Assembly: GCA_024349765.1 (NCBI GenBank) | Contig: AP026073.1 | Location: 3,534,001 to 3,598,000 of the forward strand | From: Streptomyces nigrescens | GTDB lineage: Bacteria > Actinomycetota > Actinomycetes > Streptomycetales > Streptomycetaceae | DNA length: 64,000 nucleotides | Direction of reading: 5' to 3' | Shown: piece after piece, positions 4,050-32,610 of the stretch | Layout of the letters: each line of letters begins with the position of its first letter | How positions within the stretch are numbered: position 1 is the stretch's first letter | Program-made: the position numbers and the translations under genes | Notes under the pieces: generated by a model | Told to the model about the DNA's origin: nothing | Database searches by the model: none | Seen by the model: the letters and a program-made list of their open reading frames with translations, nothing else

Positions 4050-5621
4050 ATGAGCAGTGGCGCACGGACGGTCGCCCGGCTCGTGGACTGGGCCGCGGAG
4101 CGGTACGGGGAGGGGGAGGCCCTCGTCTTCGGCGCGGACCGCTGGACGTTCGCGGAACTGCGCGAGCGGGTCGCCCGGACGGCACGCGCGGTGATCGCGC
4201 AGGGGGTGCGTCCCGGCGACCCGGTCGCCGTGTGGGCGCCCAACAGTGCCCGCTGGGTGGTGGCCGCGCTGGGTGCCGTGGCGGCGGGTGGGGTGCTGGT
4301 TCCGGTGAACACCCGCTACAAGGCGGCCGAGGCCGCAGACATCCTGCGCCGCTCCCGCGCCCGTCTGCTCTTGACCGAGCACGACTTCCTGGGCACGGAC
4401 TACCGCGCGTTGCTCGCAGACTCAGGGGAGGAACTGCCCCTGCTGGAGCGGACGGTGGCCCTGCACGACTCGGACTGGGACCGGTTCCTGGCGGGTGCGG
4501 AGCGGGTGACTGAGGCGGAGCGGCTGGCCCGCACCAACGCCGTCACCCCCACCGACCCCGCCGACATCCTCTTCACCTCCGGTACCACCGGCCGCCCCAA
4601 AGGCGTGCCCACCACCCATGAGCAGAACCTGCGCGTCTACGACGCCTGGGCCCGCGCGGTCACCCTCCGACGGGGCGACCGCTACCTCCTGGTCAACCCG
4701 TTCTTCCACACCTTCGGCTACAAGGCAGGCATCCTCGCCTGCCTGCTGTACGGGGCCACGATCGTCCCGGAGCAGGTCTTCGACGCGGAGACGGTCCTGG
4801 GCCGGATGCAGGCCGAGCGGATCTCCGTCCTGACCGGCGCGCCCACGGTCTTCACCTCGCTCATCCACCACCCCGGACGCGAGGCGTACGACCTGACCTC
4901 GATGCGGCGGGCCGTCACGGGCGCGGCGAACATCCCCACCGAACTCATCGAGCAGATACGGACGTTCCTCGGCGCGCGGCACGTCAGCACCGCATACGGA
5001 CTGACCGAGTCGACGGGCGTGGTGACGATCTGCGCACCGCACGAGTCCCCGCGGACCCTGGCCCGTACCTGCGGAACCGCCCTGGAGGGCACCGAACTGC
5101 GCATCGACGCACCACCCGGGGAACCCGGCGAGATCCTCACCCGCGGCCACCATGTGATGCACGGCTATCTCGACGACCCCGAAGCCACCGCCGAGGCCGT
5201 CGATGCGGACGGCTGGCTGCACACCGGGGATGTCGGCGTGCTGGACGAGCGTGGGTTCCTGCGGATCACCGACCGGCTCAAGGACATGTTCGTGGTGGGC
5301 GGGTTCAACGTGTACCCCGCAGAGGTGGAGCAGGTGCTGCGCGGCCATCCGGCCGTCGTGGACGCGGCGGTCGTGGGCACGCCGGACGGGCGACTGGGGG
5401 AGGTCGGCGTCGCGTACTGCGTGCCGGCGGCCGGGGCCCGGATCGACGCGGCGGAACTGACCGCGTACACGCGGGAGCGCCTCGCCAACTTCAAGGCCCC
5501 CCGCGCCTTCCACTCCGTGACCGCACTCCCGCACAACGCGGCGGGGAAGGTCGACAAGGGTGCCCTGCGACGGCTGGTGCGCTCCGCCGGACACCCCCTG
5601 GACGAGGAGACACGCACGTGA
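4050..5621 (+). CDS. Acyl-CoA synthetase (ANL superfamily, FadD3-like)
   Basis: A 523-residue adenylate-forming ligase. The phosphate loop FTSGTTGRPKG is near residues 175-185. YGLTEST, TGDVG and the hinge DRLKDMFVVGGFNVYPAEVE follow, and a terminal NAAGKVDKG carries the catalytic Lys. The start at 4050 is chosen because GGGGAGGA lies 8 bases upstream; a longer frame from 4017 lacks this. Such enzymes activate carboxylates to acyl-CoA. From memory, the N-terminal part recalls FadD3, which activates the C/D-ring propionate of steroid breakdown. Its place in a kstD operon agrees, but an unrelated carboxylate is possible. Confidence 0.87.
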   Translation: MSSGARTVARLVDWAAERYGEGEALVFGADRWTFAELRERVARTARAVIAQGVRPGDPVAVWAPNSARWVVAALGAVAAGGVLVPVNTRYKAAEAADILRRSRARLLLTEHDFLGTDYRALLADSGEELPLLERTVALHDSDWDRFLAGAERVTEAERLARTNAVTPTDPADILFTSGTTGRPKGVPTTHEQNLRVYDAWARAVTLRRGDRYLLVNPFFHTFGYKAGILACLLYGATIVPEQVFDAETVLGRMQAERISVLTGAPTVFTSLIHHPGREAYDLTSMRRAVTGAANIPTELIEQIRTFLGARHVSTAYGLTESTGVVTICAPHESPRTLARTCGTALEGTELRIDAPPGEPGEILTRGHHVMHGYLDDPEATAEAVDADGWLHTGDVGVLDERGFLRITDRLKDMFVVGGFNVYPAEVEQVLRGHPAVVDAAVVGTPDGRLGEVGVAYCVPAAGARIDAAELTAYTRERLANFKAPRAFHSVTALPHNAAGKVDKGALRRLVRSAGHPLDEETRT

Positions 5622-7237
5622 TCGACAGCAACAGCAGCACCGAGTCCGTCGACGTCATGGTCGTCGGAGCAGGCGTCACCGGCCTGTACGCCGTGCACAG
5701 ACTGCGCGGCCTCGGCTACCGCGTACGGGGCTTCGAGCGCGGGGACGACGTGGGCGGTGTCTGGTACTGGAACCGTTACCCGGGCGCCCGCTGCGACGTG
5801 GAGTCCGTCGACTACTCGTACTCCTTCGACGAGGACCTCCAGCAGGAGTGGGACTGGAGCGAGAAGTACGCCGCCCAGCCGGAGATCATGCGCTATCTGC
5901 GCCATGTCGCCGACCGCTTCGACCTCCGCCGCAGCTACACCTTCGCCACCTCGGTGACCTCGGTCGAGCTGGACGAGGAGACGTTGCGCTGGACGGTGCG
6001 CACGGACCGCGGCCAGGTGGTGTCGGCCCGGTTCTGCGTGTTCGCCGTCGGCTGCCTCTCCCGCACCCATCTACCGGACATCCCGGGGGCCGGCGAGTTC
6101 GCCGGCGCCACGTACCACACCGGTGAATGGCCGCACGAGAGCGTGGACTTCACCGGCTTGCGCGTCGGGGTGATCGGCACCGGTTCCTCCGGCATACAGT
6201 CCATCCCGCTGATCGCCGAGCAGGCCGCGCACCTGACCGTCTTCCAGCGCAGCGCCAACTACAGCATCCCGGCCGGCAACGAGCCCCTGGACGACGAGGC
6301 GCGCAGGCGGCAGAAGGCCGGCTACGCCGAGCGGCGGCGGCTGTCCCGGCTCAGCGGCGGCGGCTCGCCGCACATGGCGCACGCGTCCAGGGCGTTCGAG
6401 GTGTCCGAGCGCGAGCGCCGGGCCGCGTTCGCCCGGCGCTGGGAACTGGGGGGCGTGCTGTACGCGAAGACCTTCCCGGACCAGCTGTCGGATCTGAAGG
6501 CCAACGAGGCGGCGCGCGCGTTCTGGGAGGAGAAGGTCCGCGTCCTCATCGACGACCCGGAGGTCGCCGACCTCCTGGTCCCCACCGACCACCCGATCGG
6601 CACCAAGCGGATCGTCACCGACTCGGACTACTACGCGACGTTCAACCGCGACAACGTGCGCCTGGTCAGCCTGCGCGAGAACCCGATCCAACGGATCGAC
6701 GGCGCCGGGATCGTGCTGGCGGACGGCACCGTGGTGGAGCTGGACGCGATCGTGTTCGCGACCGGTTTCGACGCGATGACCGGCGCGGTCGACCGGATCG
6801 ACGTGCGCGGCCGCGACGGCCGGAAGCTCACGGACGTCTGGCGGGAGGGCCCGCGCACCTACCTGGGCCTGGCGGTCAACGGCTTCCCGAACCTGTTCAA
6901 CCTCACCGGGCCCGGCAGCCCGTCCGTCCTGGCCAACGTGGTCCTCTGCGCCGAGCAGCACGGTGACTGGCTCACCGACTGCCTGCGCCACCTCGATGCC
7001 CATGGCTACCTCGCGATCGAGGCGCGCGAGGAGTCCGTCGAGCAGTGGGTCACGGAATGCCGCGAGCGGGCGGCCACGACCTTGTACCCCTCGGCGAACT
7101 CCTGGTACCTCGGGGCCAACATCCCCGGAAAGCCACGGGTGTTCATGCCCTTCATCGGCGGGCTCGGGGCATACGGGGAGATCATCGCGGACGTGGCGGA
7201 CCAGGGGTACAGGGGGTTCGACCTGATCAGGGACTGA
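5618..7237 (+). CDS. Flavin-containing Baeyer-Villiger monooxygenase
   Basis: A 539-residue class B monooxygenase that starts with GTG inside the stop of the CoA ligase gene (GTGA overlap), so translation is coupled. It has two Rossmann motifs, GAGVTG at 17-22 and GTGSSG at 187-192, and between them the Baeyer-Villiger fingerprint FAGATYHTGEWP at 161-172 (FxGxxxHxxxW). The GGVWYWNRYPGARCD segment is typical of cyclohexanone/steroid monooxygenases. The reaction is NADPH- and O2-dependent insertion of oxygen next to a ketone to give an ester or lactone. Convergent esterase genes just downstream could hydrolyse the product. Substrate class (17-ketosteroid, cyclic terpenoid ketone) is inferred from context only. 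Confidence 0.9.
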   Translation: MIDSNSSTESVDVMVVGAGVTGLYAVHRLRGLGYRVRGFERGDDVGGVWYWNRYPGARCDVESVDYSYSFDEDLQQEWDWSEKYAAQPEIMRYLRHVADRFDLRRSYTFATSVTSVELDEETLRWTVRTDRGQVVSARFCVFAVGCLSRTHLPDIPGAGEFAGATYHTGEWPHESVDFTGLRVGVIGTGSSGIQSIPLIAEQAAHLTVFQRSANYSIPAGNEPLDDEARRRQKAGYAERRRLSRLSGGGSPHMAHASRAFEVSERERRAAFARRWELGGVLYAKTFPDQLSDLKANEAARAFWEEKVRVLIDDPEVADLLVPTDHPIGTKRIVTDSDYYATFNRDNVRLVSLRENPIQRIDGAGIVLADGTVVELDAIVFATGFDAMTGAVDRIDVRGRDGRKLTDVWREGPRTYLGLAVNGFPNLFNLTGPGSPSVLANVVLCAEQHGDWLTDCLRHLDAHGYLAIEAREESVEQWVTECRERAATTLYPSANSWYLGANIPGKPRVFMPFIGGLGAYGEIIADVADQGYRGFDLIRD

Positions 7238-7273
7238 CGCTGAGATGTGCCTGGTGGGCCTCCGGCACAGCGG

Positions 7274-7313
7274 TGCGCCCCGCCCTCACCGTCTCTCGTG
7301 AGGGCGGGGCGCA
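7274..7313. terminator. Bidirectional hairpin between convergent genes
   Basis: A 16-bp perfect GC-rich stem (TGCGCCCCGCCCTCAC, 7274-7289, with its complement at 7298-7313) and an 8-base loop lie between the stop of the monooxygenase gene and the stop of the convergent esterase gene. No T-run follows, as is common for Streptomyces terminators. Confidence 0.75.
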
Positions 7314-7336
7314 TGCGCACGCCCCTCGCGTGGCGG

Positions 7337-8251
7337 TCAGTCCACCTCAAGTGCCGTGCGCAGCGCCGTGAAGGCGGTTTCGCAGGCCGCGGCCGCCTCG
7401 GGCAGCGCGGCGGCCATGGACAGGAAGCCGTGGAACATCCCGGCGTAGTGGTGGGCCTCCACCGGGACCCCGGCCGCGGTGAGGGCCTCCGCGTAGGCCA
7501 GGCCCTCGTCCCGCAGGGGGTCGAAACCGGCGGTGACGACGTACGCCGGCGGCAGCCCGGACAGATCGGTGCAGGCCAGGGGAGCGGCATACGGGGCAGT
7601 CCGGTCTGCGGGTGCCGGCAGGTACCGGTCCCAGTACCAGCGCAGATGGTCGGCGGTGAGGAAGTACCCCCGGCCGTTCGCGCGGTGCGAGGGCCGGGAG
7701 CGGGCGGGGTCGAGCATCGGGTAGTAGAGCGCCTGGAAGGCGATCCCCGGCCCGCCCCGGTCACGGGAGAGCAGGGTCAGCACCGTGGCGAGGTTGGCGC
7801 CCGCGCTGTCCCCGGCGACGGCGATCCGACGGCCGGGGAAGGTCGTCGCCGCCCACAGCAGAGCCGTGTACGCGTCCTCCGGAGCGGCGGGGAAGGGGTG
7901 CTCGGGGGCGCGGCGGTAGTCCACGGAGACGACGACCGCGCCCGTGGCGTCCGCGATCGCCCGGCAGAAGCCGTCGTGGCTGTCGAGGTCGCACAGGACG
8001 AAGCCGCCGCCGTGGCAGAACAGGACCACCGGCGCGCTCTCGTGAGCGCTGCCGTGATAGACGCGCACGGGCACCCCGTCCGCATCCTCGTCCCGCACGC
8101 GGGCCACGGCGACCGGCGAGACCGCGGGGGTGGGCCGGGCGGCGAAGAAGGCCCGCACCTCGCCGATGTCCGTCATCTCCGTCCCCAGTGCTGGGAAGTT
8201 GGCGGTGGCCAGGTCGATCACCGCCTGGACCTCGGGACGGGGCCGGGTCAT
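7337..8251 (-). CDS. Alpha/beta hydrolase, HSL-type esterase
   Basis: A 304-residue hormone-sensitive-lipase family esterase. The oxyanion motif HGGG stands before FVLCDLDSHD, and the nucleophile elbow is GDSAG. The acid lies in DPLRDEG and the catalytic His in GMFHGF. Its ATG overlaps the stop of the upstream SDR gene by 4 bases (ATGA), which indicates translational coupling. Enzymes of this family cleave short-chain or bulky carboxyl esters. Facing a Baeyer-Villiger monooxygenase gene, it may open the ester or lactone made there. The cytosolic location is inferred from the lack of a signal peptide. Confidence 0.87.
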   Translation of the reverse strand: MTRPRPEVQAVIDLATANFPALGTEMTDIGEVRAFFAARPTPAVSPVAVARVRDEDADGVPVRVYHGSAHESAPVVLFCHGGGFVLCDLDSHDGFCRAIADATGAVVVSVDYRRAPEHPFPAAPEDAYTALLWAATTFPGRRIAVAGDSAGANLATVLTLLSRDRGGPGIAFQALYYPMLDPARSRPSHRANGRGYFLTADHLRWYWDRYLPAPADRTAPYAAPLACTDLSGLPPAYVVTAGFDPLRDEGLAYAEALTAAGVPVEAHHYAGMFHGFLSMAAALPEAAAACETAFTALRTALEVD

Positions 8252-22638: not shown

Positions 22639-25257
22639 GTGGCGAAGTCGTGGGCGTGTGAGGCATGTGGGGTGCGGCTCCCGGGGCGCTCGCGGTCCGG
22701 GGCGGACGGCAGACAGCGCGGGGGCCGGCCGGCGCGGTACTGCTCCGACGCCTGCCGCCAGCGCGCGTTCCGGGAGCGGGCGGCCGCGGCGTCCCGGGCC
22801 GCCCCGCGCGCGGAACTGCCGGGCCGCGGACTACCGGTCTCGCTCGATGCGTTCGTGGGACGCGAACGCGAGTTGGCGCGCTTGCGTACGCTGCTGCGGT
22901 CGTCGCGACTGCTGACGCTGACCGGGCCCGGCGGAGTGGGCAAGACGCGGCTGGCGGTCGAGCTCGCGGGCGGTGTGCGCGGCGGACGCGCGGGACGTGC
23001 CCAGTTGGTGGAGCTGGCCGGGCTGCACGACGGTGAGCTGCTGCCGCAGACCGTGGCCGCCGCCCTCGGTGTGCGGGAGCGCGCCGGCCGGACGGGAACG
23101 GAGGCGTTGGTCCGCGCCCTGGAGAAACGCAGCACCCTGCTCCTTCTCGACAACTGTGAGCATCTGGCCGAGCCCTGCGCGGTGTTGGCCGCGGCACTCC
23201 TCACCCGCTGCCCCGGCCTGCGGATCCTCGCCACCAGCCGGGAGCCGCTGCGGGTGCCCGGCGAGGTGGTGTTCCGCGTCGGCATCCTGTCGCTGCCGCC
23301 GGGCCCCGCAGGTGCTGGCGGGGATCAGCACGGAGACCAGGGCACCGACCCGCTCCTCCGGTCGGAGGCGGTCCGGCTCTTCCTGGAGCGCGCCCGCACC
23401 TGCCATTCGGGGTTCGAGCCCACGCCCGGGGACGTCCGGACCGTGGCCGAGATCTGCCGACGGCTGGACGGGCTGCCGCTGGCCATCGAACTCGCCGCGG
23501 GCCGTATGGCAGCGCTCCCGCCCGCCGGGATCCTGCGCGGACTGGACGATCAGCTGTCCCTCCTGACCGACGGCAGCAGGACGGGACCGGGGCGCCATCG
23601 CGAGCTGGGCGCCACGATCGACTGGAGCCATCGCCTGCTGGATCCCCTGGAACGGGCGGTCTTCCGACGGCTGTCGGTGCTCGGCGGCGGGTTCGACGCG
23701 GAGAGCGCCGCCGCGGTCTGTGCGGATTGCGCTACGGCCGCCGACGGTGTCGAGGGATGCGTGGGTTGCCGCGACGGGCGGTGCTGCGTACGGCGGAAAC
23801 AGGTGTTGCCCGTGCTGTGCGCCCTGGAGGCCAAGTCCCTGATCGTGCGGGTGCACGGGGACGCGCCGGGCACGGCGAGGTTCCGGCAGCTCGCGGCGAT
23901 CCGGGCGTACGGCATGGACCGGCTCGCCGAGGCCGGGGAACTACCGGCGGTCTGGGACCGGGCGGTGGACCGGCTGGCCGAACAGGCGGCTGAGGGCTCC
24001 ACCATGGTCTTCCCGGACGGCGCCGCCCTGCCGCTGGCCCGGGAACAGGAGAACCTCGCGGCGGCCGTGGCCCGTTGCGGCGAACGGAGCGACCCACGGC
24101 ACACCGAGCTCGCCCTCGCATTGGCCCGACTCCACTACCAGCAGGAGCAGTTGACGGCAGCCCGGACGCTGCTGACCGAGGTGCTGGCGCGGACCACGTA
24201 CGGCTCCCGGGACCACGGTGCGGCGTTGGCGCTGGCCGCCCGCGCGGCCTGTCAGCAGGACGACCGGTCGGCGGCGCTCGCCTTCGCCCGGGAAGCGGTC
24301 GCCGTGGAACGCGCCGGCCCACCGCACCCCGGCCGGCTGGCCAACGCCCTGGACGCCCTGGCGGCCGCGCACCTGTGCCGCGGTGCCTACCACGAGGCCG
24401 TCGCCGTCTTCGCCGAGTGTGTGGCGGTGGTCCGTACGCTGGACCGCCCGCTGGACATCGCCGTGTGCGGGCACCACCTCGCCTGGGCCCTGCTCCAGAC
24501 GGGCGACACGGCGCAGGCGGCCGCACTGATGGAGAAATGCCTCCCCGTCCTGGAATCCGGCGCTCCACCGGGGCAGGCAGCGGCCGCTCTCCACACCTCC
24601 GGCGCGATCCAGCTGGCGCTGGGGAACTGGGACGCGGCCGAGAACAGGTTCGCCGAGGTGCTGGCAAAGGTGCCGGACGGTGAGAGCCTCCACGCGCTCT
24701 ATCCGGTGGAGGGCCTGGCCATCGTGGCGGCCGAACGCGGCGCGCCCGAACGGGCGTTACGGCTCTATGCCGCGGCCGCCGCGGCGCGGCAACGCACCGA
24801 CGCCGAACCGGAAGCGAGCTGGCGGACGACGGTGGAGGCCGCCGCGTCCCGGGCCAGGGAGCGGCTCCACCCCGCACGGGTCGACGCGGCGATGACGGCC
24901 GGCCGCCGCCTGTACGGGGAACGACTGCTGTCCTACGCCCTACGCGACAACGCATCGGCCGACCGCTCGACGCACGCGAACCACGATGATCCCACCGACG
25001 TCGCGCACCCGACCCCAACCGAACCGATCAGCTACCCCGTTACCCAACTTCTGCTCACACCACGAGAATTGACGGTCTCGCAGCTGGTCGCCGAGGGGAT
25101 GACCAACCAGCAGATCGCCGCGCAGCTGGGCCTGTCCAAGAGCACGGTCGCCAGTCATCTCGACCGGGTCCGGGACAAGCTGGGCGTCCGCTCCCGTACG
25201 CAGATCGCCGTCCGGGTCTCCGGACGGGCGGGTGGTCCGGGGGCTGAGTCGGTGTAG
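22639..25257 (+). CDS. Large LuxR-type ATPase regulator with Cys-rich N-terminus
   Basis: About 872 residues. Residues 7-39 hold CEAC and YCSDAC pairs (Cys7, 10, 35, 39) as in a small zinc ribbon. An NB-ARC/AAA-type ATPase follows, with Walker A GPGGVGKT at 96-103, Walker B LLLLDNCEHL, an ATSREPLRVPGE sensor and LPLAIELAAG. A TPR-like helical region comes next, and the last 60 residues form a LuxR helix-turn-helix (LTPRELTVSQLVAEGMTNQQIAAQL). GTG at 22639 is chosen; a GTG at 22588 is possible. Codon 707 is TTA (24757-24759), which points to bldA-dependent timing. Likely a ligand- and ATP-gated activator; targets unknown. Confidence 0.85.
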   Translation: MAKSWACEACGVRLPGRSRSGADGRQRGGRPARYCSDACRQRAFRERAAAASRAAPRAELPGRGLPVSLDAFVGRERELARLRTLLRSSRLLTLTGPGGVGKTRLAVELAGGVRGGRAGRAQLVELAGLHDGELLPQTVAAALGVRERAGRTGTEALVRALEKRSTLLLLDNCEHLAEPCAVLAAALLTRCPGLRILATSREPLRVPGEVVFRVGILSLPPGPAGAGGDQHGDQGTDPLLRSEAVRLFLERARTCHSGFEPTPGDVRTVAEICRRLDGLPLAIELAAGRMAALPPAGILRGLDDQLSLLTDGSRTGPGRHRELGATIDWSHRLLDPLERAVFRRLSVLGGGFDAESAAAVCADCATAADGVEGCVGCRDGRCCVRRKQVLPVLCALEAKSLIVRVHGDAPGTARFRQLAAIRAYGMDRLAEAGELPAVWDRAVDRLAEQAAEGSTMVFPDGAALPLAREQENLAAAVARCGERSDPRHTELALALARLHYQQEQLTAARTLLTEVLARTTYGSRDHGAALALAARAACQQDDRSAALAFAREAVAVERAGPPHPGRLANALDALAAAHLCRGAYHEAVAVFAECVAVVRTLDRPLDIAVCGHHLAWALLQTGDTAQAAALMEKCLPVLESGAPPGQAAAALHTSGAIQLALGNWDAAENRFAEVLAKVPDGESLHALYPVEGLAIVAAERGAPERALRLYAAAAAARQRTDAEPEASWRTTVEAAASRARERLHPARVDAAMTAGRRLYGERLLSYALRDNASADRSTHANHDDPTDVAHPTPTEPISYPVTQLLLTPRELTVSQLVAEGMTNQQIAAQLGLSKSTVASHLDRVRDKLGVRSRTQIAVRVSGRAGGPGAESV

Positions 25258-25760
25258 CTGGAGGTGGCTGAGGGTAGCCGAGGCGCGGTCGGCCCGAAGG
25301 GCGGTCGGGCCGAGGGACGTCTGAGGGCGCCGCCCGCCACGGCCAGGCGGCGGAGGGGGGTAGGGCGGTAGGGCGGTGGTGCATCGGGCTGCTCCCAAGG
25401 ACGGCGGCCACAGAGCCAGGAGTCGGTAGCTCGCTGACAACTCTCCCTGCCCTGACGCCCGTTGCCCTCAGGGTTCAACCCTGGGCGGTCCCCGAGGCAA
25501 CCCTGAAAGCCCCCTGCCTCCTGCCAGACACATCCTGGTCCCCGCGGGTGTGCGACCGGCAGCTCGGCGACCGGCGCGGCTCCGTCCGTGATCCGCCGGA
25601 CAGGCCCTTCACCTCCCTCGTGGGGTTTCGTCACGCCCGTAACTGGTCGGTCATTCGACGGATGTGCGCAGTCGACCTGACCACGGAGGCTGATCTGAGC
25701 CGGGAGAGTGCTTCCTCCCCGGCGCTCTCCCCAACGCCATCACCCCGCAAAGGAGACGCG
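25258..25760. other. Intergenic region before the dioxygenase gene
   Basis: About 500 bases without a supportable gene. The left part has short GGTAGGGCGG repeats at about 25357-25380. The right part should hold the promoter of the dioxygenase gene. A frame open from 25548 into that gene has no signal peptide at its start and no ribosome site. Confidence 0.4.
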
Positions 25761-26489
25761 ATGCGGTACGCCGACGAGACCGGCCCGGACGATGCTGCCG
25801 GAACGCAGCACGGTTCACGCAGGTCCTTCATCAGGTCGACCTCCGCCGGAGTGACGGCAGTGGCGCTCGGCGCGAGCGTGGCCGCCTCTGCCGGCCCTTC
25901 GGCCCAAGCAGCGGAGGCGGCCGCCCCGGGGGCCCGGCGCGGCACCCGTCCGCTCGCCGTCACCCCGGCCTGCTCGGGCCAGGAAACACCGGCATCCATC
26001 GAGGGCCCGCTGTTCAAGCCCAATTCCCCCGCGCGCAGCGATCTGATCACGCCTGCGATCCAAGGCGTACGGCTCGACCTCAGCGGTGTCGTGTACGACA
26101 CGTCCTGCAAGCCCCTGCCCGAAACGCTCATCGAGTTCTGGCAGTGCGACCAGAACGGCGACTACGACACCTCGGGCTTCTCCCTGCGCGGCCACCAGTA
26201 CACCGACAGCAGGGGTGCCTACCAACTCCGGACCATCATCCCGCGGGACTACTGGGGACGTTGGGGCCAACGTGCCCCGCACATCCACACCCGGGTCCAG
26301 GCCTCCGGCGGCCCGGTGCTCATCACTCAGCTGTACTTCCCCGACAGCACCCAGGCGTACGGACGGGACTTCGCCGCTCTCAACGCCGCCGACCGACTCC
26401 TCAACCGCGCATGCACGATCAGCCTCACCGGTCAGGAGGGCGGCCGCTACACCGGCGCCTTCGACTTCGTGATCACGACCACGGTGTAG
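25761..26489 (+). CDS. Tat-exported intradiol ring-cleavage dioxygenase
   Basis: A 242-residue protein starting after AAAGGAGA. A twin-arginine signal (SRRSFIR followed by a hydrophobic stretch) is at about residues 19-45. The catalytic domain shows WQCDQNGDYD and RAPHIHTRV. By family comparison the Fe(III) ligands are Tyr135, Tyr164, His174 and His176. Intradiol enzymes split catechols between the hydroxyls with O2. Secreted Streptomyces members have been linked to lignin-derived aromatics. Export by Tat fits a folded iron enzyme. It stands alone, with no muconate-pathway genes nearby. Confidence 0.85.
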   Translation: MRYADETGPDDAAGTQHGSRRSFIRSTSAGVTAVALGASVAASAGPSAQAAEAAAPGARRGTRPLAVTPACSGQETPASIEGPLFKPNSPARSDLITPAIQGVRLDLSGVVYDTSCKPLPETLIEFWQCDQNGDYDTSGFSLRGHQYTDSRGAYQLRTIIPRDYWGRWGQRAPHIHTRVQASGGPVLITQLYFPDSTQAYGRDFAALNAADRLLNRACTISLTGQEGGRYTGAFDFVITTTV

Positions 26490-26639
26490 GCGCCGGGGGC
26501 CAAGTTCGTCACCACCACGATGCAGGTAGCGGGGCCCGAGTTCGTCAGCACCGTCCGATGGCCCGACGGGTCCGACGCGGCCTTCGCCGTCCCCGTACCC
26601 ACCCTCATCTCCCGTCCCCCTTCAGACAAGGAAATTCGT

Positions 26640-27809
26640 ATGCCCTCGCACAGCCCCTTCCCCCGGCGGCGATCCGTCCGGGTCTCCCTGCTGGCGGCCC
26701 TCGTCGCCACCGTGGTCACCGGGAGCCTGGTATTGGTCGGCCAGAGCGGTGATCCGACGACTCCGACCGCAGCCTCCGCTCCCGCGGCATCCCTCGCCCC
26801 CGCCGCCCCGCACGCGGGGGCGTGGCAGGCAACCCCGGTGCCCGTCAAGAAGGGGGATCTGACGGCCGTCGCCGCCCTGAGCGACAAACAGGCCTGGGCC
26901 GTCGGCTACCGGCTCAAGAGCGCCACCTCGCTCGAGGCGGTCGCACTGCGCTGGGACGGTAAGACCTGGACCCAGGAATCCACCCTCCCCGACAACAGCT
27001 TCCCGCAAGCGCTCGCCGTCCGTTCGGCCACCGACATCTGGGCGGTGGGCAGCGCCTCGGCCCATTGGGACGGCACCAAGTGGACCGCGTACCAGCTGGA
27101 CAAGGACCCCTCCGGCCACGTCGTCCCGGATGCCGTGGCAACAACCTCCGACGGGAAAGTGTGGACGGCGGGCCGGGCCATGGGCCGGTCGATCAAGGAC
27201 GGCGTGCCGGCCGTCCAGTCCTGGGACGGCAAGGCCTGGCACCGCCAGTCCCTGCCCGATGTCGGCAAGGGTGAACTCAGCGGCATCACGGCGGTCGCGC
27301 CCGACGACATCTGGGCCGTGGGAGCGGCCTACGCTCCCGATGAGAAGTCCCAGCAGTCGGCGCTGCTGCTGCACTTCGACGGCAGCAATTGGCGGCGTGT
27401 TGCGGCGCCCGGCCCGCAGACCACCCACAACTGGCTCGGCGGGATCACTGCCCTCTCGGCAGACGACATCTGGGCGGTAGGCGGAAGCACCACCGGCAGT
27501 ACGGAGCGGCCGCTCGCCGTGCACTGGAACGGCAGCACCTGGACCACGGCCAGGACACCGGACGTGGCCGACGGCCGACTCCGCGGCGTAGGCAAAACAG
27601 GCAACGGCGATCTGTGGGCCCTCGGCGGGAAGGGGGCGGCCCCCGTCGCTCTGCACTGGAACGACCAGCACGACCAGTGGGAGAAGACCACTGCGCCGGA
27701 CCTCGTCATCCGCAGCTTCACCACCGTGCCCCACAGCGCCGACCTGTGGGCCACCGGAATCTCCCCCCACGGCGACCTCATTCCGGCGATCACCCGCCTC
27801 AAGAACTGA
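26640..27809 (+). CDS. Secreted repeat protein, beta-propeller-like
   Basis: A 389-residue exported protein. A basic N-terminus and hydrophobic segment (residues 8-35) form a signal peptide or anchor. The rest holds about six repeats of the form DDIWAVG ... HWDGTxW, spaced by 45-60 residues, which recall tectonin or Kelch-like propeller blades. No catalytic motif was seen, so binding is the likely role. The start at 26640 has a short AAGGAAA site; a GTG-free open frame extends upstream to 26520 without a signal peptide. It follows the secreted dioxygenase gene by 150 bases and may be co-expressed. Confidence 0.75.
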   Translation: MPSHSPFPRRRSVRVSLLAALVATVVTGSLVLVGQSGDPTTPTAASAPAASLAPAAPHAGAWQATPVPVKKGDLTAVAALSDKQAWAVGYRLKSATSLEAVALRWDGKTWTQESTLPDNSFPQALAVRSATDIWAVGSASAHWDGTKWTAYQLDKDPSGHVVPDAVATTSDGKVWTAGRAMGRSIKDGVPAVQSWDGKAWHRQSLPDVGKGELSGITAVAPDDIWAVGAAYAPDEKSQQSALLLHFDGSNWRRVAAPGPQTTHNWLGGITALSADDIWAVGGSTTGSTERPLAVHWNGSTWTTARTPDVADGRLRGVGKTGNGDLWALGGKGAAPVALHWNDQHDQWEKTTAPDLVIRSFTTVPHSADLWATGISPHGDLIPAITRLKN

Positions 27810-28112
27810 TACCGGGTACTGCGTGGGCCGCCGGCACTGGCGCACAGCGGGGTTGTCCCTCCCCGCGTAAGCCCGCTGGGAGGCTCCGGACGGAGCGGAG
27901 TAACTTGCTCAACTCAGCTCACAGCAAAACGGATTGGGTTCGTCCAATGTGCCGATCCGCTTCCGACCAGCGGGTATGTTCCCCGCTCCGCTCCACCACG
28001 ACCGGCAACTACCACCGCATCCGTAAAAAAATTCGATCATGGCGCGGTTGTTCGGTGTTAGCTTGTGCCCGAGCAGTCGGATGACTGCCGATTTATACCC
28101 ATGGAGGCTGAT
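27810..28112. other. Promoter region of the lasso peptide operon
   Basis: Some 300 bases that are less GC-rich than the flanks, with several A/T runs (AAAAAAATTCGATCATG near 28026). An inverted repeat ATTGG-N6-CCAAT is at 27933-27948. The ribosome site GGAGG (28103-28107) for the precursor gene lies at the end. The promoter is expected here but hexamers cannot be assigned safely. Confidence 0.4.
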
Positions 28113-28247
28113 ATGGAAGAGCAGAACGAGCTGTCGACCGTGGAGCCGTACGCAGCCCCGATGCTGGTTGAGGTCGGCGAGTTCAACGAGGACACGCTGG
28201 GCTTCATCGGCTGGGGCAAGGACATCTTCGGCCACTACGGCGGCTGA
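28113..28247 (+). CDS. Lasso peptide precursor, anantin-like
   Basis: A 44-residue precursor (48 if the ATG at 28101 is used). The leader, residues 1-29, has the RRE-recognised motif YAAPML (13-18), Gly22 and Thr28 at position -2. The predicted core is residues 30-44, GFIGWGKDIFGHYGG. An isopeptide bond from Gly1 to Asp8 of the core would give an 8-residue ring with a 7-residue tail. From memory, anantin, an antagonist of the atrial natriuretic peptide receptor, is GFIGWGNDIFGHYSGDF; this core differs by Asn7 to Lys, Ser14 to Gly and loss of the last two residues. Cyclase, RRE and protease genes follow directly. Confidence 0.93.
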   Translation: MEEQNELSTVEPYAAPMLVEVGEFNEDTLGFIGWGKDIFGHYGG

Positions 28248-28258
28248 CCGACCGTCAC

Positions 28259-28308
28259 CAGCTGATCGACAGCTGGCTGACCCTCAACAGCTGGATTTCG
28301 CCAGCTGA
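28259..28308 (+). promoter_or_regulatory. Two CAGCTG hairpins between precursor and cyclase genes
   Basis: Two 7-bp perfect inverted repeats with the same arm sequence: CCAGCTG at 28259-28265 with 28271-28277, and CAGCTGG at 28289-28295 with 28302-28308. Arms can also pair across. They lie in the only gap of the lasso operon, right after the precursor stop. A role as partial terminator or 3' stabiliser that raises precursor over enzymes is inferred. Confidence 0.55.
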
Positions 28309-28327
28309 CTTTCAGGAGTAAGCACAG

Positions 28328-30205
28328 ATGACCGGTGCTGGGTTCGTGGTCCTGCCGGATGCGGCGTCCGCGGTAGAGGTACGTGCGGCGGTGCCCTGGC
28401 CGGCGCCCCAGGTGCTCTCGCACGCCTCTGGACGTCCGTGGCTGGTGGGCAGGTGGCTGCCTGACGCGGTTCAGGTGGCCACGGCGGGCCCGGTACGGGT
28501 GGCGGTGATCGGGATCTGCCCGGTCACCGCCACGCGGTTGTCCGAACTCACCGCCCGTATCCGCACCAGCGCCGACATCGACGCCCTGGCGGCGGCCCTG
28601 CCGGGATCGTGCCACGTCATCGCCTCGCTCGACGGACAGGTCCGCGTACAAGGCAGCATCACCGGGCTGCACCGGATCTTCCACACCCACCTCAACGGCC
28701 TGCCCGTCGCCGCCGACCGCGCTGACGTGCTGGCCACGATGACCGGTGCCGGAATCGACGAACGCGCCCTGGCCCTACGCCTGGCCTGCGGCGGACTCGT
28801 TCCCCCGCCGCTGAGCGACACACCCCTGTGGTCAGGCATCTCCCCACTGCCCGCGGACCACTACCTGCTACTGCAGGACCAACAAGCCCGGCAGGTCCGC
28901 TGGTGGCGGCCACCCACCCCCGACCTCTCCCTCGCCGCGGGCGCAACGGCCCTGCGCGAGGTGCTGGAGACGGCCATGGCCGGCCGCGCGCCCTCCGCGG
29001 GCCGGCTGAGCAGCGACCTGTCCGGCGGCATGGACTCCACCTCCCTGTGCTTCCTCGCCGCCCGCACCACCCCCGACCTGCTGACCTTCCGCTGGGGCGA
29101 GGCCGAGGCCGGCAACGACGACGCGGCCTTCGCCGCCCACTCCATCGACGCCCTCGACCGGGCCGAGCACCTCGTCATACCCCCAACCGACCTCCCGGCC
29201 CTCTTCACCGACCCGGCCACCACGACCGAGTTGGAAGAGCCCTACCCGTTCGTCCGCACCGGCGCACGTACCCGCCACACCGCCCGGTTGCTCGCCGACC
29301 GCGGAGTCCACCGCCATCTGGCCGGGCACGGCGGCGACGAATTGTTCACCCCCTTCCCCGGCTATCTGCACCCGCTGCTGCGGCGCCGCCCCGTCACCGC
29401 GCTGCGGCACGTCCGCGGTTACGCCGCCCTCAAGCGCTGGCCGCTGCTGCACACTCTGGCTGCGCTGACCCGCCCCGGTCACCAGGCATCGTGGTGGCGC
29501 GCCCAGGCCGACCACCTCACCGACCCACCGTCGCGCAAGCGCCGCCCCAGTCTGGGCTGGGGTCTGTGGCCGCTGCGCGCCCCGGCCTGGGTCACCACCG
29601 AGGCCATCGAGACCGCCCGCGCCGGCCTCGGCCGGACCGCAGCCCAGGCAGAGCCGCTCTCCACCGACCTCGGTCAGCACCAGACCCTGCTCGCCGTACG
29701 CATCGCCGCCCCCTGGTACCGGCTGCTGGCCCGCCCGTTCGCCGACGCCGGCGTCCAGCTCGACTCGCCGTTCTTCGACGACCGCGTCGTCGAGGCCGTG
29801 CTCCGGGTGCGCACCCACGAACACGCCGGGCCCTGGCACTACAAACCCCTGCTCGCCCACGCCATGCGCGGCATCGTCCCCGACACGGTGCTGGGCCGGT
29901 CCACCAAGGGCGAGTTCAGCGAAGAGGCCAGCACCGGCCTCCGCCGCAACCTGCCCGCCCTGCTGGAGCTCTTCGACGATTCGGCCCTGGCCGCCCACGG
30001 CCTCATCGACCCGGCCGTACTGCGCACCCAACTGCTGGCCCCCCAGGCGACCAACGCCATGAACATCGCCCTGGAACCCCTCATCGGCTGCGAAACCTGG
30101 CTGCGCGCAGCCACCCGGCCCACCGCACCCACGCCCGCTCGATCCACGCCCATCCGACCCACCCCCGCCCGAAGGACGACCGACACCCATGCACCTGCAC
30201 CCTGA
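28328..30205 (+). CDS. Lasso peptide cyclase (asparagine synthetase-like)
   Basis: A 625-residue protein of the asparagine synthetase B superfamily. A degenerate N-terminal glutaminase-like part without catalytic Cys2 is followed by the ATP pyrophosphatase loop SGGMDST at 232-238 and the conserved GHGGDELF. In lasso synthesis it adenylates the core Asp side chain and lets the new N-terminal Gly attack it. The last 40 residues are Pro/Thr/Arg-rich with no known role. An AGGAG site precedes the ATG, and the 3' end overlaps the RRE gene by 17 bases. Assignment rests on motifs and on the precursor, RRE and protease context. Confidence 0.93.
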   Translation: MTGAGFVVLPDAASAVEVRAAVPWPAPQVLSHASGRPWLVGRWLPDAVQVATAGPVRVAVIGICPVTATRLSELTARIRTSADIDALAAALPGSCHVIASLDGQVRVQGSITGLHRIFHTHLNGLPVAADRADVLATMTGAGIDERALALRLACGGLVPPPLSDTPLWSGISPLPADHYLLLQDQQARQVRWWRPPTPDLSLAAGATALREVLETAMAGRAPSAGRLSSDLSGGMDSTSLCFLAARTTPDLLTFRWGEAEAGNDDAAFAAHSIDALDRAEHLVIPPTDLPALFTDPATTTELEEPYPFVRTGARTRHTARLLADRGVHRHLAGHGGDELFTPFPGYLHPLLRRRPVTALRHVRGYAALKRWPLLHTLAALTRPGHQASWWRAQADHLTDPPSRKRRPSLGWGLWPLRAPAWVTTEAIETARAGLGRTAAQAEPLSTDLGQHQTLLAVRIAAPWYRLLARPFADAGVQLDSPFFDDRVVEAVLRVRTHEHAGPWHYKPLLAHAMRGIVPDTVLGRSTKGEFSEEASTGLRRNLPALLELFDDSALAAHGLIDPAVLRTQLLAPQATNAMNIALEPLIGCETWLRAATRPTAPTPARSTPIRPTPARRTTDTHAPAP

Positions 30206-30440
30206 CGTGGTCTCCACCGACACCGACGACGGCACCGTGCTGCTCAACCAACGCACCGGCCGCTACTGGCAGCTCAACACCACCGGCGCCCACGTACTGC
30301 GCGAACTCCTCGCCGGCCACACCCCGAACGACATCGCCGCCGACCTCGCCGCCCGGCACCACATCGACTCCACCCGAGCCGAACAGGACGTCACCGCGGT
30401 CCTCACCCAGCTGCGCACCGCCGACCTGGTGACCACATGA
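30189..30440 (+). CDS. Lasso RRE protein (PqqD-like, B1)
   Basis: An 83-residue RiPP recognition element. It opens with three short strands (VVSTDTDDGTVLLNQRTGRYWQLN) and continues with helices containing ALRELL-like and AEQDVTAVLTQL segments, as in PqqD-fold proteins. It binds the leader motif YxxPxL and brings the precursor to the protease. Its start lies within the end of the cyclase gene and its stop overlaps the start of the protease gene (ATGA), so all three are coupled. Size is usual for a stand-alone B1 protein. Confidence 0.92.
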   Translation: MHLHPDVVSTDTDDGTVLLNQRTGRYWQLNTTGAHVLRELLAGHTPNDIAADLAARHHIDSTRAEQDVTAVLTQLRTADLVTT

Positions 30441-30865
30441 GCCTCCCCGTTGCCCTGTCCGAACGACCCCGCCTGCCCCTGCACCGCCGCCCGGTACCCC
30501 TGCTGGCCGTCGCCGCCGCCCGCCTGCTGGCCAAGCTGAAACCGGCCCGCCTGCGCCGGATCCTGGAATTCGCCCGCCGCGGCGCCCGACCTGCCACCGC
30601 CGAACAGGCCCTGGCCGCCCGCGAAGCGGTCGTCGCCGTCAGCCTGCGCTGCGCCGGCCAGGGCTGTCTGCAACGCTCCATCGCCACCGCTCTGCTCTGC
30701 CGCCTGCGCGGTGCCTGGCCCACCTGGTGCACCGGTGTGCGCACCCACCCGTTCGCCGCCCATGCCTGGGTCGAGGCCGACGGCCACCCCGTAGGCGAGC
30801 CCCACCCCAAGGGCCACTTCAAACCACTGATCGCCGTGCCACCCCTCTCGCCGGCGGGGGAGTAG
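30437..30865 (+). CDS. Lasso leader peptidase (transglutaminase-like, B2)
   Basis: A 142-residue protein of the lasso B2 cysteine protease family. The likely triad is Cys77 in GCLQRS, His109 in AHAWVEADG and Asp115. It cuts the leader after Leu29, next to the Thr at position -2. This is the last gene of the operon; an ECF sigma gene converges from 15 bases downstream. No ABC exporter (D gene) or isopeptidase follows, unlike many lasso clusters. Length is as usual. Confidence 0.92.
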   Translation: MSLPVALSERPRLPLHRRPVPLLAVAAARLLAKLKPARLRRILEFARRGARPATAEQALAAREAVVAVSLRCAGQGCLQRSIATALLCRLRGAWPTWCTGVRTHPFAAHAWVEADGHPVGEPHPKGHFKPLIAVPPLSPAGE

Positions 30866-30879
30866 CTGAGCGCCACCCG

Positions 30880-32085
30880 TCAGCGACTCAGGCGCGCGTT
30901 GACCCGGGCGGCCTGGCGCGTCAGGTGGTCGCGCTCGGCGAGGTTGGGTGCCTTGTGGGCCGCCTCGGCGTACAGCCGTGCCGCAGTCGCCAAGTCGCCG
31001 TCGCACTCGTGGAGGTAGGCGGCCACCGCGGTGTGGCGGGGCAGTGCGTCGTCCAGCTCCGCGAGCGCCGCCAGGCCGGCGCGCGGTCCGTCCGCCTCGC
31101 CCACGGCGACCGCGCGGTTGAGCCGGACGACCGGGCTGTCGGTCAGGCGCGTGAGCTCGTCGTACCACTCGACGATCTGCACCCAGTCGGTCTCCTCGGC
31201 GGTGGGCGCGTCGGCGTGGAGGGCGGCGATGGCGGCCTGGGCCTGGAACTCGCCCAGCCGGTCGCGGGCGAGGGCCGCCTGCAGGATCTCCACGCCCTCG
31301 GCGATCAACTTCGTGTCCCACCGGCCGCGGTCCTGCTCGGCGAGCGGCACCAGACTGCCGTCGGGCGCGGTCCGGGCGGCTCGTCGGGCGTGGTGGAGCA
31401 GCATGAGGGCGAGCAGCCCGGCCACTTCGGGGTGGTCGATCGCGGCCGCGAGCTGCCGGGTGAGCCGGATGGCCTCGGCGGCCAGGTCGACGTCGCCGGA
31501 GTAGCCCTCGTTGAAGACCAGGTAGAGGACGCGCAGCACGGTGGCGACGTCGCCGGGCCGGTCGAACCTTCCCCCAGCTCTCGAATGCGCTCGAGCAGGG
31601 GATAGCCCAACATCGGAGACGGTGCGCTTGCCCCGGCTGATGCGCTGCGCCATGGTCGCCTCGGGCACCAGGTAGGCCTGGGCGATCTGGCGGGTGGTGA
31701 GCCCGCCGACGGCGCGCAGCGTGAGGGCGACCGCGGACGCAGGTGTCAGCGACGGGTGCGCGCACAGGAAATAGAGCTGGAGTGTGTCGTCCGCCGCGGG
31801 CACGGGCCCGGACGCCGGCTCCTCCTCGACGCGTTCCTCACGCCGGCGGCGGGCTGCGTCCGCCCGGGTCGCGTCGAGGAACTTGCGCCAGGCCACGGTG
31901 ACCAGCCAGCCCTTCGCGTCCCGCGGAGGGTCGGCCGGCCAGACGCGGACCGCCTCGACGAGCGCGTCCTGCACCGCGTCCTCGGCCGCCGCGAAGTCGG
32001 CTCCGCGGCGGACGAGGACGGTGAGCACACTCGGCGTGAGGCTCCGGATCAGGGCCTCGTCCATCTGGGACACCTGCGGGGTCAC
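30880..32085 (-). CDS. ECF42-type sigma factor with TPR-like extension
   Basis: A 401-residue ECF sigma factor. Region 2 is in the first 90 residues (ADFAAAEDAVQDALVEAVRVWP), region 4 at about 115-165 (LTTRQIAQAYLVPEATMAQRISRGK), then a 220-residue helical C-terminal domain with the VLYLVFNEGYSGD hallmark. ECF42 factors use this domain in place of an anti-sigma factor and are partnered by DGPF proteins, as here. The start GTG overlaps the stop of the DGPF gene (GTGA). About 15 codons between region 4 and the C-terminal domain derive from an inserted palindromic repeat (see 31567-31611); the frame is kept. Confidence 0.88.
   Translation of the reverse strand: MTPQVSQMDEALIRSLTPSVLTVLVRRGADFAAAEDAVQDALVEAVRVWPADPPRDAKGWLVTVAWRKFLDATRADAARRRREERVEEEPASGPVPAADDTLQLYFLCAHPSLTPASAVALTLRAVGGLTTRQIAQAYLVPEATMAQRISRGKRTVSDVGLSPARAHSRAGGRFDRPGDVATVLRVLYLVFNEGYSGDVDLAAEAIRLTRQLAAAIDHPEVAGLLALMLLHHARRAARTAPDGSLVPLAEQDRGRWDTKLIAEGVEILQAALARDRLGEFQAQAAIAALHADAPTAEETDWVQIVEWYDELTRLTDSPVVRLNRAVAVGEADGPRAGLAALAELDDALPRHTAVAAYLHECDGDLATAARLYAEAAHKAPNLAERDHLTRQAARVNARLSR
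31567..31611. repeat. Palindromic Streptomyces repeat inserted in sigma gene
   Basis: The stretch CCCCCAGCTCTCGAATGCGC TCGAGCAGGGG (written in two parts) is an imperfect palindrome. It matches in form the small intergenic repeats with CAGCTCTCG and CTCGAGCAGGGG arms that I recall from many Streptomyces genomes. Here it lies inside the sigma-factor frame and encodes about 15 extra residues (DVGLSPARAHSRAGG) where related ECF42 proteins go straight from TVSG to RFDQPGD. Confidence 0.65.
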
Positions 32086-32489
32086 TCCGTGATGGTGGGG
32101 GGCGCGGTCAGGAACGGGCGCAGCTCCAGCCACTCGTGGATCGGCTTCCCGCCCGCCCCGGGGGCGGCCGACAGTTCCCCGGCCAGCTCGACGGCGCGCT
32201 CGTAGCTGTCGACGTCGATCACCATCCAGCCGGCGATGAGGTCCTTGGTCTCGGCGAACGGACCGTCGGTGACCGGCGGGCGGCCCTCGCCGTCGTACCG
32301 GACCCACTTCCCCTCGGGGGCGAGCGCCTGACCGTCGACGAACTCGCCGGTCTTCTCCAGCCGGGCCGCGAAATCATTCATGTACTGCACGTGGGCCGAG
32401 ATCTCCTGCGGCGTCCACTGATCCATGGGCACGTCGTTGACCGCAGCCGGAGCGCCGCGGTAGTGCTTGAGCAGCAAGTACTTGGCCAT
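32082..32489 (-). CDS. DGPF/YCII-domain protein, partner of ECF42 sigma
   Basis: A 135-residue YCII-fold protein with the diagnostic TDGPFAETKDLIAGW segment at about 75-90 and a MKYLLL-like N-terminus (MAKYLLLKHYRG). Genes of this DGPF family are the regular upstream partners and presumed targets of ECF42 sigma factors. A GAGGAGAG site precedes the ATG, and its stop overlaps the sigma GTG start. Biochemical role unknown; the fold resembles muconolactone isomerase-type dimers. Confidence 0.9.
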   Translation of the reverse strand: MAKYLLLKHYRGAPAAVNDVPMDQWTPQEISAHVQYMNDFAARLEKTGEFVDGQALAPEGKWVRYDGEGRPPVTDGPFAETKDLIAGWMVIDVDSYERAVELAGELSAAPGAGGKPIHEWLELRPFLTAPPTITE

Positions 32490-32610
32490 GGTGTCTCTCC
32501 TCGATGCTGTTGCGACCCATTGTGGCCGCGTTCAATGCTGGGACGGAGCCGGCCACGCGTTCTCGGCATCGCCGTCAGAAATTTTTTTGGGCTCTTGTGG
32601 GGGCTCATCG

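Follow-up and report, generated by a model that had tools for sequence, protein, structure and literature searches.

The window (the whole 64 kb stretch of DNA that was analysed) carries an intact lasso peptide operon with the gene order A-C-B1-B2 at 28113-30865, and all four frames lie on the + strand. A and C are separated by 80 bases, and overlaps are present at C/B1 and B1/B2. The features of the region are:

28113..28247, + strand: gene A, predicted ulleungdin precursor, 44 aa, leader MEEQNELSTVEPYAAPMLVEVGEFNEDTL followed by core GFIGWGKDIFGHYGG (ORF, NF033521, core identity)
28200..28244, + strand: codons of the core peptide, precursor residues 30-44, with a predicted Gly1-Asp8 ring (translation, class II 15-mer in reviews)
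28328..30205, + strand: gene C, lasso cyclase, asparagine-synthase-like, 625 aa, SGGMDS at residues 232-237 (PF00733)
30189..30440, + strand: gene B1, leader-binding PqqD-like (RRE) protein, 83 aa (NF033530, solved relatives)
30437..30865, + strand: gene B2, leader peptidase, transglutaminase-like, 142 aa (NF033537, PF13471)
30880-32088, - strand: next gene, converging, with matches to sigma-70 regions and DUF6596 (Pfam)

An earlier note on this DNA had described a complete A-C-B1-B2 operon followed by a converging gene, and both points hold: the frames are intact, A, B1 and B2 score above their NCBIfam cut-offs and C above that of Pfam, and the neighbour is the minus-strand sigma-70/DUF6596 gene. 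The part of the window from 24002 to 32600, which includes the operon, was aligned with Streptomyces sp. NRRL S-337 in three pieces with 89-92% DNA identity.

The precursor starts with ATG at 28113, with GGAGG ahead of it, and this start position is common to the relatives (MEEQ, MDEQ, VDEQ or MNEN). Against the NCBIfam lasso leader model NF033521 it scored 31.4 bits (cut-off 19). The leader motif Y..P.L...G.....T.G was found at precursor residues 13-30, and the core has Gly1 and Asp8; it means that the protein has the leader motif, Gly1 and Asp/Glu at 7-9 by which lasso precursors are recognized. The anantin-like core with Gly1 and Asp8 in ring positions, as the earlier note had it, can be seen directly in the translation. 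Among 392 genomes of the genus, three (the window genome, G064 and G194) encode the 44-aa precursor with 100% identity; compared with the window gene, the DNA of the other two differs by 5 and by 3 bases out of 132, always at third codon positions. Because the protein is unchanged in two other genomes and the DNA changes are at third positions only, we do not consider the operon a product of chance. With E 0.001, precursor matches were found in 18 of 392 genus genomes and 21 of 394 family genomes, two samples that overlap, and most of these matches were distant.

C matched Pfam Asn_synthase (PF00733) with 136.9 bits (cut-off 21), in keeping with an asparagine-synthase-like lasso cyclase. It stayed under the curated cut-offs of both NCBIfam macrolactam cyclase models, NF033561 among them (260.2 vs 300 and 53.9 vs 525 bits). 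As two further lasso loci in the same genome have cyclases that are likewise under these cut-offs, the models were taken as narrow. B1 was recognized as an RRE protein by NF033530 (110.1 bits, cut-off 70), and its solved relatives were TfuB1 (6jx3, E 4.3e-17), TbiB1 (5v1u, E 8.5e-7) and, weakly, 9x90. B2 was recognized as a leader peptidase by NF033537 (124.9 bits, cut-off 33), with 103.6 bits for PF13471. The search of solved structures gave no relative for C at E 0.001 or for B2 at E 0.01. Scanning contigs with C gave 13 loci with cyclases 53-90% identical over the best segment, and a lasso-like precursor was present upstream of each.

The core GFIGWGKDIFGHYGG is letter for letter the sequence of ulleungdin, a class II lasso peptide according to Table 1 of a 2025 review (PMC12427821), which cites Son et al. 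2018. A second report (PMC7955054) gives the mass and fragmentation of ulleungdin in Streptomyces sp. ID38640, together with a cluster having the identical predicted core. For the 15-mer minus one water we computed [M+2H]2+ = 796.8859, the same as the calculated value given there. Ulleungdin is described in PMC6636559 as a threaded class II 15-mer that inhibits A549 cell invasion and migration, and it appears in two genome papers as one of the matches for clusters of S. explomaris and S. auratus. As far as these sources describe it, the uld cluster of Streptomyces sp. KCB13F003 agrees with the window in the core, the length of 15 residues, class II and the m/z that we computed. The two differ after B2, where a review (PMC9266682) places an acetyltransferase gene, thought unrelated, in KCB13F003, whereas the converging sigma factor gene follows in the window.

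With the core identity given by the review table and by the report of a second group, the window operon is, almost beyond doubt, predicted to be the ulleungdin biosynthetic operon. Its product is already known, and was isolated and described in 2018. The earlier note had considered the core possibly unreported and had named an identical core in the literature as the finding that would speak against this. Such a core is in print as ulleungdin, and on the published review table (PMC12427821) and the second report (PMC7955054) we rejected the novelty of the core. As read from the genes, the window strain is one more strain encoding ulleungdin.

When established lasso peptide biochemistry is applied to the observed genes, family matches and core identity, B1 would bind the leader of precursor A and B2 would cut between Leu29 and Gly30. 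C would then convert Asp8 of the core to an acyl-adenylate and link it to the Gly1 amino group, closing the ring around the threaded tail; the result would be ulleungdin, a class II peptide of 15 residues.

Compared with anantin (GFIGWGNDIFGHYSGDF), the window core shows N7K and S14G and is missing the last two residues, so that residues 7 and 14 differ, positions 16-17 are absent, and it is not the anantin core. Lys7 and the tail shorter by two residues had been pointed out in the earlier note, and these differences stand, but the S14G change was overlooked. The anantin ring is one residue off the ulleungdin ring, and L062 in genome G539, whose core is exactly that of anantin, likewise has the order A-C-B1-B2. 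A review table (PMC7549694) lists anantin B2 with a MIC of 12.5 µM against B. subtilis, and that table has no antibacterial entry for ulleungdin. The earlier note took anantin not to be a strong antibiotic; by the listed value, anantins do have some antibacterial action.

The relatives were counted as 11 distinct genomes with a GFIGWG core; contigs that occurred twice were entered a single time, six such pairs having been compared over 300 bases. The identical 15-mer was present in four of them: the window genome, G064, Streptomyces sp. NRRL S-337 and S. piniterrae. Over the 300 bases compared, the S. piniterrae contig has the sequence of G366, a genome assigned to the genus of the window, which identifies that genus as Streptomyces. 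S. chattanoogensis has the 16-mer GFIGWGKDIFGHYGGR ending in Arg, S. olindensis has GFIGWGDDIFGHYSGDF, and GFIGWGNDIFGHYSGGF is found in S. tibetensis, S. massasporeus and S. paradoxus, while G539 has the exact anantin core. The core of S. echinatus is the Lys7 17-mer GFIGWGKDIFGHYGGGF (L045/L027), which resembles ulleungdin in Lys7, Gly14 and the order A-C-B1-B2 but anantin in length; it was not found printed in the literature searched. A cyclase tree was made with 10 of the 11 GFIGWG genomes (G539 left out) and five outgroup rows. The five 17-mers, S. echinatus included, formed one clade (100/99), and the fork uniting the ten had 92/94, short of the tool's mark. The tree leaves the order among the shorter cores open and so gives no direction of change. 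As a by-product, these genomes provide naturally occurring cores that bridge anantin and ulleungdin. In the plasmid search 10 records had partial matches and none covered 80% of the query, and viral contigs gave one pattern match and no relative.

No adjacent ABC transporter gene (D) was found at the window operon. A scan for ABC ATPase motifs, requiring Walker A and an LSGG-type signature in the same frame, gave no match in the whole 64 kb window, and none of the 23 PF00664 matches of the genome, an incomplete list that omits the ABC gene of the C2 locus L037, lay inside it. The earlier note was right that no ABC exporter adjoins the operon. It had also seen no isopeptidase there, which holds within the six neighbouring proteins scanned with Pfam, where no peptidase was found. 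In the fetched flanks of the 11 GFIGWG genomes no ABC ATPase motif was seen beside the operon, the S. echinatus contig ending 337 bases after B2. One of the 11, S. piniterrae (L026), has such a motif in its flanks, 9 kb upstream of C, and L062 with the exact anantin core has none in 19 kb. The same scan detects an ABC gene in each of two other lasso loci of the window genome, L035 and L037, at a distance of 3.9 and 4.0 kb from the start of C. Judging from these sequences, the relatives examined in general have no ABC gene next to the operon, and its absence is therefore not to be read as a trait of the window member. The claim that export was lost in this member fails on the relatives, L062 among them, and exporter loss specific to the window operon was rejected, other GFIGWG operons also being without an adjacent ABC motif.

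Frames of other transporter types were seen by eye. In S. chattanoogensis (L041) a 692-aa MFS-like efflux frame (5504-7582) lies shortly before A (7830) in the same orientation, and no such frame was seen beside the other operons with listed flanks, a check made on the relatives. In S. piniterrae (L042) an importer-permease-like frame lies downstream of the operon.

The earlier note read the operon as coding for a new analogue of anantin whose charge had changed and whose export had been lost. Residues 7 and 14 do differ from anantin, the last two are missing and the window gave no ABC exporter, but the same core was published as ulleungdin, and neither the exact anantin core nor the other GFIGWG operons have an ABC motif beside them; we give this reading practically no chance. 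That the cluster is intact but silent, with no product in the window strain, is improbable. A promoter and terminator scan found none, the sigma-70-like promoter scan of 27800-31000 giving 0 vs 0.1 expected, which says little in Streptomyces, and the wild type of ID38640 is reported in PMC7955054 to have produced traces only. The four intact frames argue against silence, as does a precursor protein that is the same in three genomes with DNA changes at third positions.

Ulleungdin might also be exported by the ABC exporter of another lasso locus, at C1:4032938 (with C, B1, B2 and an ABC gene) or on C2 near 997 kb (with a cyclase-like gene, B2 and an ABC gene). Each of these ABC genes sits with another lasso locus, however, and with 23 PF00664 matches in the genome nothing singles these two out, which makes shared export very improbable. 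An ulleungdin operon with no ABC gene of its own beside it is the reading that we prefer.

The neighbours of the related operons were named by eye. On the 3' side of the operon in S. olindensis, S. tibetensis, S. paradoxus, S. massasporeus and G539 (L043, L044, L046, L047 and L062) we found LemA-like, PdxS, PdxT, YebC, RuvC and RuvB frames, not every one of which passed the coding filter at every locus. S. echinatus has its LemA-like frame on the upstream side, and the operons whose cores have 15 or 16 residues are flanked by other genes than the anantin-type ones. The anantin/ulleungdin family may form a lasso lineage that lacks an ABC exporter of its own, the anantin-type at one fixed housekeeping site and the ulleungdin-type elsewhere, which would hint at a conserved role in the producer cell rather than a secreted weapon; we regard this as an unlikely, speculative idea.

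Further lasso loci are present in the window genome. L037 (G000:C2:988000-1007000) has a cyclase-like gene of 28-29% identity, B2 and an ABC gene; its B1 was seen by eye only, with no NF033530 match there, and its precursor was not identified. In L036 (G000:C1:470000-489000) the precursor core is GFTGYHWDGWAGFFGW, the cyclase has a long low-complexity stretch, the B1 match covers profile positions 1-33 only and no B2 match was obtained; this locus looks decayed. L035 (G000:C1:4022000-4041000) has C, B1, B2, its own ABC gene and a core of about LLNSSGNDRLILSKN. Profile searches show that the ABC genes of L035 and L037 encode ABC transporters, and neither reaches the curated cut-off of a named type. 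The L035 core presumably resembles citrulassin, and the letters used for citrulassin A were found in print.
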